Assembly (NCBI GenBank): GCA_024919035.1
Contig: CP103442.1
Span: 248,001-312,000, forward strand
Length of the DNA stretch: 64,000 nt
Direction of reading: 5' to 3'
From: Methylophilaceae bacterium LSUCC0401
GTDB taxonomy: Bacteria; Pseudomonadota; Gammaproteobacteria; Burkholderiales; Methylophilaceae
The notes beneath the pieces are model-generated. The model was not told where the DNA came from and made no database searches. It worked only from the letters and a program-made list of their open reading frames with translations. The position numbers and the translations under genes were made by a program. This document shows positions 17,004-42,141 of the stretch, in pieces (position 1 is the stretch's first letter; each line of letters starts with the position of its first letter).

Positions 17004-17696
17004 TTATCTTGAAAAAAAATTCTTGATGGTTTTAAACACCTGGCTTTGTTGATTAATATTAATCTTAATCTCTTCACCCTTAATGAGATTCATCGCTTTA
17101 TAAAGGACATCCACTTTACCTCGACAAAATTTTGAATTTTGATACCCAATCGTTGGAATATTCACACATTCAGATATTTTTTTATTACTTAATGAAGTCA
17201 TTTTTGATAAGACAATCATATCAGCACCAGCTTCTTCTAGAGATTTTGCAATTTTTGTATATTCGAGAGGCTTTTGTTTGGTGATTTTTTTTTGAGGCAT
17301 TTGTCCGATATGTGAACAAACAGCTATTCCAAGGGATTTGAGCTTTCGTATTAACGCAATTACCTCCTCATGCCCTTCAATTTTAATAATATCAGCTCCT
17401 TGATGAATTAATCTTTTTGCATCTTGTACAGCCTTTTTTGTTGATATCATCGATTTTGCAGGAAGATCAGCAATAATCGGAATGCGAGTTTGTTTTTTTA
17501 TAATTTTGAGAAATGCTAATAATGTATTGATATCGATTTCTGAAGTGTTTCTATGACCCAGAACAAGAACACCAATTGAATCACCAATTAAAACAGCATC
17601 ACATCCGACTAAATTAGCAATGGATGCAGATGTGGCGTCATAGCAACTAAGAATTTTTAAGTATTTTTTTTTAAAGAGTTTATGGTTGACATCCAT
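17004..17696 (-). CDS. panB: divergent 3-methyl-2-oxobutanoate hydroxymethyltransferase
   Basis: PanB makes ketopantoate from 2-oxoisovalerate with methylene-THF. The family is recognisable: the metal-binding acidic residues Asp39 (in GDS), Asp77 (in ADLP) and Glu107 (in KIEG) are all kept. However, the protein is 230 residues against about 264, and the motif that holds the catalytic Glu (E. coli Glu181, in LECVP) reads LSKMT here, so position 164 is Ser. The glycine-rich IGIGAG segment is also replaced by IGYQNS. The frame is intact and lies in the expected folK-dgk-panB-panC order. It may be active by another residue, changed in function, or decaying. Confidence 0.85.
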   Translation of the reverse strand: MDVNHKLFKKKYLKILSCYDATSASIANLVGCDAVLIGDSIGVLVLGHRNTSEIDINTLLAFLKIIKKQTRIPIIADLPAKSMISTKKAVQDAKRLIHQGADIIKIEGHEEVIALIRKLKSLGIAVCSHIGQMPQKKITKQKPLEYTKIAKSLEEAGADMIVLSKMTSLSNKKISECVNIPTIGYQNSKFCRGKVDVLYKAMNLIKGEEIKININQQSQVFKTIKNFFSR

Positions 17697-37628: not shown

Positions 37629-38750
37629 ATGCTTTCATTTAAGATTCACAATTCCTTTTTAGATTTATCAGATGATGTTGATCAGTTCATTGGTCAAAAG
37701 TTGTTGTGGAATTTAGATTTTTTAAAAGCAATGGAAAAATCTCAATCGATCGGTAAAGACTCTGGTTGGGACCCTAGGGCAATATGTATATATGATACTA
37801 ACAATCTTATAGGTTTTGTTCCTATGTTTATCAAGCATCATTCATATGGGGAGTATGTGTTTGATTGGTCTTGGGCAGAAGCCTACAATCAATTAGGCTT
37901 GGCATATTTTCCTAAATTATTCATTGGACTACCTTTTACTCCTGTTAACTCCAATAAAATAATTACGCAAAAAGATACTTTAAAGAAAGACATAATTAAA
38001 TTTATTGAAAACTTTATCGAAAAAGAAAATTTATCATCGGCTCACTATGTTTTTTCTGAAAATAACGATTCTATAAATGATATTTTTAGAAATAAAAATT
38101 GGTCAAATCGCAAAACCATCCAGTATTTATGGAGAAATAAAGAGTATAAAGATTTTGATCATTTTTTAAGCATACTGAAACACGATAAACGAAAAAAAAT
38201 TAAACAAGATAGAAAAAAAATAAGTAGTTTTAATCTTTCCTTTCAGATAATTGAATATGATCAAATCACCACAGATGTAATTGATTTTTTTTATCAGTGC
38301 TACTCAATGACCTACCATCAGCATGGATCCATACCTTATATAAAAAAAGAATTTTTTGACGAATTCTTTGTAAAACATAGTGATCGTGTTGTAATCTTTT
38401 GTGGAATGATTGGTGGACAAAGGGTTGGATCATCCTTTTGCCTAAAATTAGGTGACTCTCTTTATGGAAGATATTGGGGTGCTATAGAGTATATTCCAGC
38501 CTTACATTTTGAATTAAGTTATTACCAAGGAATTGAATATTGCATTAGAAATAAAATTGAAAAATTTTATGCGGGCATTCAGGGTGAACATAAATTATCG
38601 CGAGGTTTTGAACCTTTATTTTCAGACTCTTTTCATTTCTTAAAAGATGAGAGATTAAAGAAGGCTGTCAGTGATTTTGCAAAAAGAGAAGGCAATCTTC
38701 ATCAGCAATATTTAAATGAATTAGAATCGAGAGTTCCTTTTAAAGATTAG
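37629..38750 (+). CDS. FemAB-like / GNAT-fold acyltransferase (PF04339 type)
   Basis: The 373-residue protein matches the conserved proteobacterial family of peptidoglycan-like FemAB/GNAT proteins: WNLDFLKAMEKS near residue 30, KHHSYGEYVFDWSWAEAYNQLGLAYFPK split around residues 75-105, PFTPV, and near the end QGEHKLSRGFEP. Family members are usually annotated as hypothetical or as peptidoglycan-related acyltransferases; the substrate is not established. The gene converges on the waaG-like gene with an 11-nt overlap. Confidence 0.85.
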   Translation: MLSFKIHNSFLDLSDDVDQFIGQKLLWNLDFLKAMEKSQSIGKDSGWDPRAICIYDTNNLIGFVPMFIKHHSYGEYVFDWSWAEAYNQLGLAYFPKLFIGLPFTPVNSNKIITQKDTLKKDIIKFIENFIEKENLSSAHYVFSENNDSINDIFRNKNWSNRKTIQYLWRNKEYKDFDHFLSILKHDKRKKIKQDRKKISSFNLSFQIIEYDQITTDVIDFFYQCYSMTYHQHGSIPYIKKEFFDEFFVKHSDRVVIFCGMIGGQRVGSSFCLKLGDSLYGRYWGAIEYIPALHFELSYYQGIEYCIRNKIEKFYAGIQGEHKLSRGFEPLFSDSFHFLKDERLKKAVSDFAKREGNLHQQYLNELESRVPFKD

Positions 38751-39831
38751 CAAGAATTTTTTTGTCTAATTGGTAATTAGTAAATTTTTTGAAACTTAAA
38801 TCAGGAGTTTTGGGTGTTTTTAATGTAGTTTTTAAAAGCTTGTGAAGGGCTACATTTAGTTGATTTTGTTCAAATGGATTGTTAAGAACTATGGAGTAAT
38901 TATGATTTTTAACATAGTGACTATATCCGCAGTTTTCTGTGGTAATGATAGGTAGATTCTGAGATAACGCCTCTAATAAGATGAGGCCTGTATTTTCATA
39001 TCTAGCCGGATGTATCAATAATGATGCTGCCCGCATTACTTTGTGAATATCATTATGTCCCTCAAAAATTTTTATCGAATCAGAAAGATTATATTGATCA
39101 ATCAGTTTTTTATATTTATTAGCTTTATCTTTTCCAAAAATTGCAAAATTATAATTTTTTTGAATTGAATTTGGCAGACTTGCAAATGCATGAATTGATC
39201 TGTCCAAACCCTTGGTTTTAAAACCTGAGCCCACAAATAAAATAAAATTTTTATTTTTTGAAAAATACCCTTTAATAGGATTAGAAATAATTTTATTGAA
39301 CGTAAAAAACTTTTTATCAATAAATGGAGGAATGAAAATAAATTTTTTGTTATCAGTCTTAAAAATAGACTGGTATATCTGATTTTCTTTTTTAGAAATT
39401 GATAGAATTTTAGTATGTGAATAATTAGAAAAAATATCATTTTCTTGTTTTAAAAAAAATTTATTACGTGGAAATAAATTTAAAAAAAAATTTTTATTTT
39501 TAAAAGTGAAGCATGAGTCTGCCGCATAATAAAAATCAAAACCTGAAAGTTTGCTAAAAGCTATTGAAATTGAATCGGTTTGCGATTCTAAATATTCGAG
39601 TGCTTTTTGCTGGAAATTTGAATATTTTTTGTGATTAAAAAAAGCGTTATTTTTTAATAATTTTATTTGAATGTTTTTGGAAGGCTTTATTGCATTCCAT
39701 TCCATTGTCAAAATTTCAACAGTAAATGTTTTACTTAATTTTTCTGCTAATAGCATCATGTCTCTTTGAGCGCCGCCAAAAGGAAAATACTTATAAATAA
39801 TTAATACAAATTTTTTAACTTTTTTATCCAA
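38740..39831 (-). CDS. LPS-core glycosyltransferase, WaaG-like (GT4)
   Basis: A GT-B fold glycosyltransferase of 363 residues. The N-terminal FPFGGAQRDMM glycine-rich motif, AFSKLSGFDFYYAADSC, and the C-terminal ENTGLILLEALSQNLPIIT with the E-x7-E motif follow WaaG, which adds the first glucose to heptose in the LPS core. The first codon is TTG at 39831, with no ATG before the glycine-rich motif and no obvious ribosome-binding site, so its start is uncertain. It overlaps the DUF2970 gene by 8 nt. Confidence 0.85.
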   Translation of the reverse strand: MDKKVKKFVLIIYKYFPFGGAQRDMMLLAEKLSKTFTVEILTMEWNAIKPSKNIQIKLLKNNAFFNHKKYSNFQQKALEYLESQTDSISIAFSKLSGFDFYYAADSCFTFKNKNFFLNLFPRNKFFLKQENDIFSNYSHTKILSISKKENQIYQSIFKTDNKKFIFIPPFIDKKFFTFNKIISNPIKGYFSKNKNFILFVGSGFKTKGLDRSIHAFASLPNSIQKNYNFAIFGKDKANKYKKLIDQYNLSDSIKIFEGHNDIHKVMRAASLLIHPARYENTGLILLEALSQNLPIITTENCGYSHYVKNHNYSIVLNNPFEQNQLNVALHKLLKTTLKTPKTPDLSFKKFTNYQLDKKILANL

Positions 39832-40027
39832 TGATTTGAGAGACGATAAATATTAATGTAAAAATGAAAATTATAGCTAGACAGAGTCCAACAAGAAAAT
39901 AAGGCATAAAACCATATTTTTCTATTAAGTTATCATCCTCATTAAATTTGCTATTTTTTTGAATACCGATAAAGGCTGATAAAACACTCTGGATTATTTT
40001 AAATAGATTCATTAAATAATTATACAT
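39824..40027 (-). CDS. DUF2970 small membrane protein
   Basis: A 67-residue protein with FKIIQSVLSAFIGIQ near the N-terminus and a single transmembrane helix (about residues 42-65), the pattern of DUF2970. Function unknown. A second ATG at 40012 would give 62 residues and fits the family at least as well. It lies immediately outside the left repeat of the tRNA island. Confidence 0.8.
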   Translation of the reverse strand: MYNYLMNLFKIIQSVLSAFIGIQKNSKFNEDDNLIEKYGFMPYFLVGLCLAIIFIFTLIFIVSQIIG

Positions 40028-40054: not shown

Positions 40055-40130
40055 ATTTTAAAGTATTGATTTTAAATGAAATAATGGTGGTGATGGAGAG
40101 ACTTGAACTCTCGACCTCAGGATTATGAAT
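40055..40130 (-). repeat. left direct repeat: 3' half of tRNA(CAT) plus downstream flank
   Basis: This 76-bp segment repeats 42035-42110 with three mismatches. From 40082 to 40130 the 49 bp are identical. It contains the 3' half of the tRNA (40085-40130, from CCA up to the anticodon loop), after which similarity stops abruptly. The 5' half is missing, so it cannot fold into a tRNA. This is the expected displaced end after integration of a mobile element into the tRNA. Confidence 0.9.
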
Positions 40131-40341
40131 ACTAGATTCTAGTTCAATCTAATACCCTTTGAAGCATTTGAGAGTGTAATATATTACACTTTTTTTATGT
40201 CATTTTGATCCTCTACATCCCACTGTTTTCTGTGCTTTCAGAGTATTACCCCTGCTATTTAATGTCAAGTTTTTTTGCCCATCCTGTAGCCCTTGATATA
40301 TAACTCATTCAGAAGGTCATTTTTTCAAAATATTTTTTTAA
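40131..40341. other. left island flank without genes
   Basis: With the repeat before it, this makes a gene-free stretch of about 314 bp. It holds the dyad ACTAGA-T-TCTAGT at 40131-40143, directly at the end of the repeat, and the palindrome at 40173-40190. The rest, to the stop of the glycosyltransferase at 40342, shows no open frame, promoter or RNA I can support. Confidence 0.6.
40173..40190. repeat. perfect 18-bp palindrome containing the island octamer
   Basis: AGTGTAATATATTACACT is its own reverse complement. It carries the octamer ATTACACT in inverted orientation, starts 10 bp apart. The same octamer occurs twice at the other end (41985 and 41995). It is followed by seven T, so it could also be a weak terminator, but the shared octamers favour a protein-binding role. 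Confidence 0.55.
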
Positions 40342-41316
40342 TTACCTAATAAGGTTTAACCACTTTTTAGCGATCATTTCTTGAGTATAGTTTTTAACCT
40401 TTTTCTGTGCCATCTCGGCGCGACTAGAATATAGCGATGGATTCTGAAGAAAATTTTCAAATTCAGTTTGATTATCAATATCTACAAATTGGTGATCAAA
40501 CTCAAGATATGATTCATATCTTGTGGCAGCAACAGGAAGTCCAAGAGCAAAAGCAGTGATCAAGCGATTATGACTAACCCCATTTTTTCTTTCATCACTT
40601 ATATCCCCTGGAATAATAACTCCTGATACATTAGCAGATGCTTTTAGCATGTTTTCAATGCTCCATAATTGAAACTGAATATTTAAATTAGGAGGATTTG
40701 AAATATGTTGTGATTGGTTTCTAATTTCATCCATACCTTCTTCTGATGTTTGAATGATTAAATTGGATTGAATTTTAGAATTCCAATTCCAATTATTTAT
40801 TAAATTGAAAAGATATTTGAGATTAGTATGATGCCCAAAGAATAAAAATGATGATTCCTTACTTTTTTTTACTTTTTGAATTTGAATTTCAATCGGATCC
40901 TCAATGATTGTTATGTTTTTAAAATTAGGATTAAGGTGATTCTTTAGTTTTACACTTGAGGTTATGATCTGATCATTTGAGTTTAATGACGCTCGATAAA
41001 ATTGACCTGGTAATGTTTCTTTATCAAGATGATGATCTGTGTAGTCAAAAAATATTTTTTTTCTATTCTTTCTATGATTATCAATTATATTAAACCAATT
41101 AGTTAATAGATCCTCTCTGTTGCCCGGAAATTTACTAATAAACAAGAAATCAATTTTACCAAGGTCATCAATAGACTCATTGATGGTTAATTTATATTCA
41201 TTAAAAAATGGTAAATTAAATAGAGAGGTTCTTAATCTTATTGACGCAATATTTGATAGAGAAATATCTTTTGGTTCTTTTACTTTATAAGGAACTAACC
41301 AGTGTATGCTTTTCAT
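40342..41316 (-). CDS. glycosyltransferase-like protein (island cargo)
   Basis: A 324-residue protein. The second half has a GT-B-type Rossmann domain: LFFGHHTNLKYL begins the domain, followed by SGVIIPGD and NRLITAFALGLPVAATRYESYLEF, the region that in GT4 enzymes contacts the nucleotide sugar. The classical E-x7-E motif is not clear, so the call is by fold only; substrate unknown. No signal peptide or membrane segment. It is encoded 6 nt after the FkbM gene within the island, suggesting that the two act on one surface glycan. Confidence 0.7.
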   Translation of the reverse strand: MKSIHWLVPYKVKEPKDISLSNIASIRLRTSLFNLPFFNEYKLTINESIDDLGKIDFLFISKFPGNREDLLTNWFNIIDNHRKNRKKIFFDYTDHHLDKETLPGQFYRASLNSNDQIITSSVKLKNHLNPNFKNITIIEDPIEIQIQKVKKSKESSFLFFGHHTNLKYLFNLINNWNWNSKIQSNLIIQTSEEGMDEIRNQSQHISNPPNLNIQFQLWSIENMLKASANVSGVIIPGDISDERKNGVSHNRLITAFALGLPVAATRYESYLEFDHQFVDIDNQTEFENFLQNPSLYSSRAEMAQKKVKNYTQEMIAKKWLNLIR

Positions 41317-41322
41317 AAACCT

Positions 41323-41976
41323 TTACCAGGACAATATATAATCTTTAACAACCTGATCAATTACTTTTGCCCCATAACTTTTTAAGGTATCGACTGCTTC
41401 AAACTGTGTTTCATTAAATCTATTTGAAAAACCTTTTTGTTCAACAATAATAATTGGTTTATTTCTTAATAAGGTTTCTTTAGCACCTAAAACAACTTGA
41501 TTTTCATATCCTTCAACATCAATTTTAATGAAATCTACATCAGTCAATTCATAATCGTCTAATTTTTTTAATTCAACTTTATTTAAATCATTTGTATTAC
41601 TTGACACATGTGTTGCACCAGTATTTTCTAATTCAACATTCATACTAACAAAACCATTTTCATTACCAAGAGCAACTGGAAGTAATTCAACATTTCCATG
41701 TGGAATATTCTTTTTAAAACATTCTCTAAAAATTTCTACGGGTTCAAAAGCATAAACTTTCTTAAAATTTCCACCTAAATAAAAACTCCAAAAACCACAA
41801 TGTCCACCAACATCAATAGCAGTGTGCTTTCTATTTTTAATATGATGGAAACATCGATCAATATGCTGAGGTTGGTAAAGTCGCTTATCGCCCACTTGAA
41901 CTGATTGAGAAAAGTAACCTTCAAAATGTTGGTCTTCTTTGGGTAACCACCAACCGTATATATATTTTTTATTCAT
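41323..41976 (-). CDS. FkbM-family SAM-dependent methyltransferase (island cargo)
   Basis: The 217-residue protein is a clear FkbM methyltransferase: AIDVGGHCGFWS is the SAM-binding glycine motif, YAFEPVEIFRECFKKNI the acidic second motif, and DFIKIDVEGYENQVVLGA the third. FkbM enzymes methylate sugar hydroxyls. Its short N-terminus with GWWLPKEDQHFEGYF resembles, as I recall, small methyltransferases of marine phages, which would fit a mobile origin; this is a weak inference. Its ATG is 88 nt from the tRNA 3' end, so read-through from the tRNA promoter could express the cargo. Confidence 0.88.
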   Translation of the reverse strand: MNKKYIYGWWLPKEDQHFEGYFSQSVQVGDKRLYQPQHIDRCFHHIKNRKHTAIDVGGHCGFWSFYLGGNFKKVYAFEPVEIFRECFKKNIPHGNVELLPVALGNENGFVSMNVELENTGATHVSSNTNDLNKVELKKLDDYELTDVDFIKIDVEGYENQVVLGAKETLLRNKPIIIVEQKGFSNRFNETQFEAVDTLKSYGAKVIDQVVKDYILSW

Positions 41977-41984
41977 AAAAAAAT

Positions 41985-42002
41985 ATTACACTTTATTACA
42001 CT
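41985..42002. repeat. paired octamer ATTACACT at the right island end
   Basis: ATTACACT occurs at 41985-41992 and again at 41995-42002, starts 10 bp apart (one helical turn), in direct orientation. The same octamer is in the left palindrome. The location suits arm-type recombinase or excisionase sites, but it is also just upstream of the FkbM start and could be an operator. Confidence 0.5.
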
Positions 42003-42034
42003 TTTTTGTAACCTTATTGGGTAGAGCATTAGAG

Positions 42035-42110
42035 ATTTTAAGTTATTGATTTTAAATGAATTAATGGTGGTGATGGAGAGACTTGAACTCTCGACCTCAG
42101 GATTATGAAT
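42035..42110 (-). repeat. right direct repeat within the intact tRNA(CAT)
   Basis: It matches 40055-40130 with three mismatches, all outside the tRNA, at 42042, 42043 and 42061. Identity ends at the anticodon loop, after which the true 5' half of the tRNA follows. With the left copy it forms the presumed attachment-site pair. Confidence 0.9.
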
Positions 42111-42141
42111 CCTGCGCTCTAACCAGCTGAGCTACATCACC
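42065..42141 (-). tRNA. tRNA with CAT anticodon (elongator Met, or Ile2)
   Basis: A complete 77-nt cloverleaf with encoded CCA (complement of 42065-42067), discriminator A and acceptor GGTGATG/CATCACC. The anticodon stem CAGGA/TCCTG around TTCATAA gives anticodon CAT. The first pair is a normal G1-C72 and the stem lacks the GGG/CCC of initiators, so it is not initiator Met. Elongator Met is most likely, but CAT tRNAs modified by TilS to read AUA cannot be excluded. It is the integration site of the island. Confidence 0.9.

Follow-up and report, generated by a model that had tools for sequence, protein, structure and literature searches.

Interchangeable cargo-only cassettes lacking an integrase at a tRNA-Met(CAT) gene of streamlined Methylophilaceae

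How does a tRNA gene come to stand beside a second copy of its own 3′ part, with two genes between the copies and no integrase among them? The question is raised by a 64,000-nucleotide stretch (the window, C1:248001-312000) of the genome of Methylophilaceae bacterium LSUCC0401 (G000, the single 1.307-Mb contig C1), where an earlier note, made from the sequence alone, had described a small island in a tRNA(CAT) gene. The four named loci that best match its YchF belong to Nitrosomonadales/Methylophilaceae metagenome-assembled genomes. Our analysis indicates that this island is probably one of a family of cargo-only integrative cassettes at the tRNA-Met(CAT) gene beside ychF, which would be served in trans by a tyrosine integrase.

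ARAGORN, Rfam and a repeat search bear out the geometry first described, with an intact tRNA, a displaced copy of its 3′ part 1,980 bp away, an exact core of 49 nt and two genes between the copies. The tRNA 3′ part and its flank are duplicated over 79 nt at 95% identity (start to start, 1980 bp), and the exact core (40082 = 42062) is the longest two-copy exact direct repeat of at least 25 nt in the window; the other two such repeats are internal to the neighbouring tRNA-Arg genes (205-371), and inverted copies of 25-mers are absent from the window. Our tRNA survey covered 384 kb of the 1,307 kb of G000, and among the 35 tRNA genes found there tRNA-Met(CAT) alone has a displaced exact copy of at least 18 nt. 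Identity between the copies breaks off within the anticodon stem, immediately beyond the anticodon, in agreement with the proposed crossover near the anticodon. Between the copies lie only two open reading frames (ORFs) of at least 80 aa, both on the minus strand and neither encoding an integrase, as had been stated. A third, 26-nt match to the flank was rejected as weak (E 3e-4); it falls inside a long ORF that we take to be mnmE. Beyond what had been noticed before, the cassette has a conserved non-coding left end of about 205 nt and a structured right end of about 80 nt.

To place this arrangement in its genus, we compared 31 genomes including G000, one genome per species, of which 28 were usable at the site (G002, G021 and G028 had no usable stretch). 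Both copies and a cassette stand on one contig in G000, G006, G003, G001 and G015, and both copies are present on two contigs in G010; G030 and G026 retain a cassette right end on contigs that break inside the cassette, and the contigs of G020, G007 and G008 reach no further than the tRNA or its flank, those of G020 and G007 stopping 6-7 bp outside the gene. The tRNA is single-copy with FemAB about 217-306 bp away in 13 genomes, single-copy with extra glycan-type genes and no second repeat in G018, G025 and G027, and single-copy within the cassette-bearing clade itself in G011, whose genome is 88% complete. Checking relatives for an empty site and for other cargo, as the earlier note had proposed, thus yielded both. 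The same repeats enclose a GT-like gene (GTx) and an FkbM gene in G000 and G010, a GTx homologue alone in G006 (a 1.34-kb cassette) and a gene for a 179-aa methyltransferase-like protein in G003, G001 and G015 (0.68-0.69 kb); in G026 the right end adjoins a gene for a 267-aa FkbM-like protein, 29.5% identical to FkbM. Cassette lengths in these relatives range from 683 to 1,336 bp, and the 179-aa protein, in its G003 copy, gives Pfam matches below the cut-off.

The single-copy site of G011 allows the insertions to be aligned. The core adjoining the site is 90-98% identical among G011, G003, G001, G015 and G006, and when the flanks of the latter four are joined across the cassette they match G011 at 89.4-92.5% over 612-613 columns with at most two 1-bp gaps, whereas the element side of the same sites reaches 68-71%. 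Because the joined flanks match and the element side does not, the alignments identify one orthologous site that holds no insert, one cargo or another. The joined flanks of G000 align less well with G011 (82.1%, ten gaps, the longest of 21 bp), in keeping with the greater distance between these two genomes, so G000 itself lacks a close empty relative. The flank of G011 carries the attachment (att) motif of the cassette-bearing genomes at 19 of 19 positions, together with a degenerate right end that lies 57 bp from the tRNA and, at 13.2 bits, has the highest score in the 18 kb of G011; the displaced copies of G003, G015, G006 and G001 are likewise accompanied by a degenerate right end, at a distance of 56-57 bp. 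Since these traces recur at the single-copy site and at four displaced copies, they suggest an older occupant and serial insertion at the site.

The cassette ends share a standard architecture. Tandem ATTAYACTTT repeats stand 57-58 bp from the tRNA in all eight genomes that have a right end, and a genus-wide search allowing two mismatches returned nine matches in 8 of the 31 genomes, every one at this site, with none in the control. In G000 this right-end motif, ATTACACTTTATTACACTTTTT, is located 58 bp from the tRNA 3′ end and 8 bp upstream of the FkbM start. The flank motif ATTGATTTTAAATGAATTA matches at 17-19 of 19 positions at nine intact and five displaced copies in nine genomes (the eight with a cassette end, plus G011) and at only 8-14 positions in 14 other congeners and two family members, the 95% level of shuffled sequences being 11-14 across all copies compared; this count took in neither G014, G024 nor the displaced copy of G010, which was read separately. 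The left ends of G000, G010 and G006 are 203-208 nt long and pairwise 85.1-86.7% identical, and elsewhere in the 31 genomes the left end finds one 33-nt piece only, at 88%, in G011.

The two ends are related to each other, as the left end holds an inverted pair of right-end half-sites. Scanning the window with a matrix built from four right ends, which included the right end of G000 and excluded its left end, gave the cassette right end as the best match and the left palindrome, AGTGTAATATATTACACT, as the second. The half-sites read ATTACACT in 4/4 positions of G000 and 4/4 of G010 and AATATAC in 4/4 of G006; G003, G001 and G015 have a right end of the ATTATAC type only, and their left arm is missing. 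Judged from these sequences, the motifs at the two ends have changed together from one cassette lineage to the next. Ends and cores are also discordant in sequence, which we read as a horizontal signal. Between G001 and G030 the core is 73.9% and the non-coding right end 94.2% identical, and between G006 and G003 the order is reversed (core 90.7%, right end 77.8%); the left end of G000 is 85.1% identical to that of G006 and 85.4% to that of G010, for cores at 79.4% and 90.6%, respectively. Predicted RNA structure in the left end is not remarkable (z -1.78).

Table 1. Features of the tRNA-Met(CAT) cassette of G000, in window coordinates
Feature	Position	Strand	Basis
Displaced tRNA 3′ part (40085-40133) + 30-bp flank, distal copy	40055..40133	-	repeat search
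Conserved non-coding left end	40134..40341	.	85.4% to G010, 85.1% to G006
Palindrome AGTGTAATATATTACACT, perfect over 18 bp, an inverted pair of right-end half-sites	40173..40190	.	matrix scan of window
GTx, GT-like cargo gene 2, 324 aa; glycosyltransferase assignment weak	40342..41316	-	weak NCBIfam match, E 0.013
FkbM-family methyltransferase, cargo gene 1, 217 aa	41323..41976	-	PF05050, E 4e-17; TIGR01444
Right-end tandem motif ATTACACTTTATTACACTTTTT, arm-site-like, 10-bp period	41985..42006	+	genus-wide motif search
Flank motif ATTGATTTTAAATGAATTA, 1 bp off tRNA 3′ end; att signature of cassette-bearing group	42045..42063	+	motif matching across genomes
Intact tRNA-Met(CAT), proximal copy (regenerated target)	42065..42141	-	ARAGORN; Rfam RF00005 at 42068-42141

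The cargo had been called a glycosyltransferase-like gene and an FkbM methyltransferase gene; the second assignment holds (PF05050), and the first is weak. GTx has no Pfam match at E 0.001, its structure model is of low confidence and Foldseek returned no match at E 0.001 or better; together with the weak NCBIfam match, this does not establish it as a proven glycosyltransferase. Between G000 and G010, FkbM has a nonsynonymous divergence (dN) of 0.0105 for a synonymous divergence (dS) of 0.0888, a disparity that indicates purifying selection. FkbM of the G000 type occurs only at the ychF tRNA-Met gene (G000, G010, G018 and G025), with three weak matches elsewhere at 27-41%, and it is 81% identical in the distant G018, where YchF is only 69% identical. 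GTx of G000 is likewise 62-65% identical to proteins of the distant G004, G018 and G027 and 41% identical to that of G006, whose GTx, although it adjoins a left end 85% identical to that of G000, shares 39-42% of protein and 62.7% of DNA positions with the G000 type. In G010, GTx looks mosaic (N-terminal part 61%, C-terminal part 86%), but a contig break lies between the two parts. A GTx homologue (65% aa) also stands directly downstream of tRNA-Leu(caa) in G004 (L406, 6116-7422), a member of the cargo family at another tRNA; near this tRNA-Leu, and on the tRNA-Ser contig of G027 that carries a further homologue, no displaced tRNA copy longer than 14 nt was found. Relatives of FkbM occur at 26 loci in viral contigs, at 33-41% identity.

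The same comparison speaks to age. The earlier note had read the identical tRNA part of the displaced copy as a sign that the insertion is recent or still exchangeable, yet G010 has the same cassette type at 90.6% core identity with a dS of about 0.089 in FkbM, and a recent insertion is not upheld. Constraint on the att core, or exchange, accounts better for the identical tRNA part than recency does; the displaced copies of G006 and G015 have one mismatch each in this part.

Next to the cassette, a GT4 glycosyltransferase gene (window 38740-40027) lies between FemAB and a small membrane ORF. It is found at the locus in seven genomes (G000, G010, G006, G003, G001, G015 and G011) and is absent from the 13 congeners in which FemAB and the tRNA are tightly spaced, which makes it an older insertion at the same locus.

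With the repeats, the single-copy site, the interchangeable cargo, the conserved and co-varying ends and the discordance of ends and core established, we propose the following mechanism. The streamlined, freshwater-type Methylophilaceae of this genus, resembling Candidatus (Ca.) Methylopumilus, would host a family of very small integrative cassettes of 0.68-2.0 kb whose attachment site is the tRNA-Met(CAT) gene beside ychF. Each cassette would carry a cargo of one or two genes of surface-glycan type and would supply its own 3′ part of the tRNA, with flank, by which the tRNA is restored on insertion while the former 3′ part is moved away. Recognition sites would lie at the ends, on the right as 10-bp repeats in tandem, set 57-58 bp away from the tRNA, and on the left as an inverted pair, and a tyrosine integrase would act on the anticodon-stem core with these repeats as its arm-type sites, as in phage attP. 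The arm function is suggested by the uniqueness of the motifs, their fixed spacing from the tRNA and their concerted change at both ends, and core plus arms within roughly 200-250 bp fit an attP length of about 250 bp (PMC4383910). Since the cassettes encode no recombinase, the integrase would have to act in trans, presumably from a phage or another element, and transfer between cells may occur through transformation or transduction. Mobilisation in trans, as first suggested, is therefore best taken as a probable property of this integrase-less cassette; excision, a circular form and current mobility are likewise what we infer from the sequences.

A number of findings weigh against this reading. 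The 31 congeners yielded no autonomous element that has these ends, and viral contigs gave no match to the 45-nt tRNA part or to the left-end pattern. Searching the genome for a tyrosine recombinase, as had been recommended, did produce XerC, XerD and one divergent phage-type integrase in G000, alongside a serine resolvase (C1:415900-416316), but no helper linked to these ends. In G003 and G015, which carry cassettes, and in G011, the PF00589 matches are XerC and XerD only, and none of the eight congeners searched, G003 and G015 included, gave a match for a serine resolvase. The cassettes of G003, G001 and G015 have no left arm and because of this may be relics. The right motif could equally be a promoter, since it resembles a -10 box and, in five of seven genomes, precedes the cargo start by 6-8 bp; this role could coexist with that of an arm site. 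Finally, the 13.2 bits of the degenerate right end in G011 are not above what cassette-free genomes give elsewhere (14.0 in G009, 12.8 in G018); this feature is supported by its position and not by its score.

The search for a helper brought several further loci to light. None of the extra integrases listed for PF00589 in the 31 congeners adjoins the ychF tRNA-Met gene, and among the matches listed in phages and plasmids (20 of 37 and 20 of 79 records) coverage is 3-6% of the query, at the tRNA, with none covering 80%. The tandem motif itself occurs in three viral contigs, one of which (IMGVR_UViG_3300048672_001228; L284/L285) shares 28 nt with the right end of G000 about 320 bp upstream of a tyrosine integrase. 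Between the integrase and a repressor-like gene, this contig is densely set with ATTACACT/TTGCACT repeats, both inverted and direct. By a rough estimate about one chance match of the 22-mer is expected in such a viral collection, and related 9-mers occur within 700 bp upstream of the integrase in 3 of 80 relatives, the L284 contig included, with 8 sites in 80 x 700 bp upstream against 10 elsewhere; the 28-nt match is a weak lead, possibly due to chance.

Integrases were also seen at other tRNA genes. In G001, a 3.8-kb element at tRNA-Phe (L269, 3665-7517) resembles the cassette in its small size and its 62-nt displaced tRNA 3′ fragment, and differs from it in having its own tyrosine integrase beside the tRNA; it encodes a protein which, judged by its sequence, we take to be an invasin-like beta-barrel, and a second secreted-looking protein. 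In G006, a tyrosine integrase of 381 aa lies 1.5 kb downstream of the other tRNA-Met/Ile2-like (CAT) gene (L270, 5183-7878), and no displaced tRNA copy was found in the stretch examined. The divergent integrase of G000 (C1:408504-409745, below the Pfam cut-off) adjoins an intact tRNA-Arg(cct) at 409,754 (about 5755-5829 of L177, which is G000:C1:404000-423999). At C1:421,093-421,160 (L177, about 17094-17161) stands a fragment of a tRNA-Arg(cct) like that of the congeners, lacking the 5′ end; the intact gene is quite different in sequence, and the fragment is not derived from any tRNA in the 384 kb examined. This tRNA-Arg(cct) and the tRNA-Ser(gga) at 562,450 match the borders of flexible genomic island 1 (fGI-1) of Ca. 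Methylopumilus (PMC10872708), and from the sequences an island at fGI-1 seems to have brought its own replacement tRNA.

Among the alternatives, one would see the cassettes as immobile relics of larger integrase-bearing islands, decayed in the classical manner of cis-mobilizable elements (CIMEs), with variation arising by homologous replacement between the flanks, for example after transformation. We regard this as rather unlikely. It would account for the missing helper, the lost left arm of G003, G001 and G015, the additional glycan-type genes of G018, G025 and G027, where a second repeat is absent, the mosaic look of GTx in G010 across its contig break and the degenerate right end persisting in the flank of G011. 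However, the end motifs of G000, G010 and G006 are intact and co-vary where drift would erase them, the spacing from motif to tRNA is fixed, and the joined flanks match G011 to within 1-bp gaps.

We give a similarly low credence to the possibility that the end motifs are signals for expression of the cargo (tandem -10-like boxes on one side, a terminator or operator on the other) and that insertion uses the tRNA core alone, an account compatible with mobility. On its coding strand, the minus strand, the right motif reads TGTAAT or TATAAT, and it lies 6-27 bp upstream of the nearest minus-strand start in the seven measurable genomes (6-8 bp in five, 16 bp in G003, or 6 bp counting a third repeat, and 27 bp in G006), while the left palindrome is placed after the last cargo gene. 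A promoter would not lead one to expect a motif unique to this att site among 31 genomes, a spacing from the tRNA that is kept even with 27 bp to the gene in G006, or half-sites that recur at the far end and are changed in concert.

Insertion by the host XerC and XerD, as in IMEX, is very improbable. These are the sole PF00589 recombinases found in G003, G015 and G011, but two dif-type queries reach just 13/28 positions in the tRNA core, and on this count Xer recombination at a dif-like tRNA core was rejected. G000 moreover has a separate dif-like site at C1:657000 (27/28 to a dif-type sequence), and arm-like sites would not be expected for Xer. An assembly artefact or chance repeat can be dismissed almost outright: drafts do break inside the cassette (G010, G030, G026) or 6-7 bp outside the tRNA (G020, G007), but four other single-contig genomes show the geometry of G000 with other cargo, so that five (G000, G001, G003, G006 and G015) span the site with three cargos. 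The one draft of this group to span the site is that of G011, with its single copy, and the breaks in or beside the cassette in G010, G030, G026, G020 and G007 may reflect variation in the population or simply the 79-bp repeat.

Read as an integrative cassette served in trans, the element has its closest known kind in the CIMEs, and by sequence it is a CIME-type, integrase-less tDNA element. CIMEs keep attL and attR, have no genes for integration or transfer and take part in accretion at the ends of target genes (PMC5704250); the cassette likewise has both att copies and none of these genes. It differs in being very small, in the several cargo types found at one site in sister genomes and in its conserved arm-like ends, and no parent integrative and conjugative or integrative and mobilizable element, or other integrase-bearing relative, was found at this tRNA among the 31 congeners. 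Integrase-less islands are also known at ssrA in Dehalococcoides, cargo-only and bounded by displaced copies of the target RNA gene (PMC3146451); these involve a serine recombinase, tandem arrays and integrase-bearing relatives at the site, whereas the cassette has an anticodon-type tRNA crossover and no such relative. Phage satellites of the PICMI type encode their own excision and replication proteins (PMC10803314), of which the cassette has none.

Within aquatic streamlined bacteria, tycheposons (4-200 kb, with a tyrosine recombinase) and, among them, fGI-3 of Ca. Methylopumilus/OM43 resemble the cassette in their tRNA-linked cargo and in the use of tRNA-Met(CAT) (PMC10872708); the cassette has no recombinase and is shorter than 4 kb, and so lies outside that definition on both counts. 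By our own mapping from the published description, fGI-3 falls in G000 at the other CAT tRNA, at 139,707 (xer at 132,551; glmS at 1,288,932, across the origin), and not at 290,065, and the integrase site of G006 described above is the published fGI-3 site by the same mapping. The additive islands of fGI-2 at tRNA-Lys come nearer, going down to 330 bp and one coding sequence in the same genus, with tRNA-end repeats and a comparably tiny size (PMC10872708). They differ in having 20-bp repeats of another tRNA, and end motifs are not part of that description; the fGI-2 20-mer matches only tRNA genes (17-19/20) in the 384 kb of G000. The same source reports no bona fide integrons among small insertions in the genus, its description does not include the ychF tRNA-Met site, and FkbM has 0 occurrences in its main text. 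Given the CIMEs, the ssrA islands and the tRNA-Lys islands (PMC5704250, PMC3146451, PMC10872708), the view that such elements are little described was overstated. The novelty lies in a combination: a length below 2 kb, cargo that can be interchanged, standard ends and co-varying sites, all at a single slot.

More tentatively, and with clearly less confidence than in the cassettes themselves, these elements might form a system parallel to integrons, in which standard-ended glycan cassettes of one or two genes change places in a single tRNA-Met slot through an integrase encoded by none of them, and two to three site specificities (ATTACAC, AATATAC and ATTATAC) have co-evolved. If so, a streamlined genome would re-dress its surface without carrying a recombinase.

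The cassette has the signature that Islander looks for, an intact tDNA with a displaced 3′ fragment downstream in the same orientation, and lies outside its requirements of an integrase ORF and a length of 2-200 kb, as it has no integrase and measures 1,980 bp (PMC4383910). Such a standard finder of tDNA islands drops these elements twice, through its integrase filter and its 2-kb length filter, and because both filters discard them, cargo-only cassettes may be common yet uncounted. The constant spacing and co-varying end motifs make the missing integrase searchable. For these streamlined aquatic bacteria, the site offers a test case for the swapping of surface-glycan genes, probably driven by phage pressure, outside the known large replacement island (PMC10872708).

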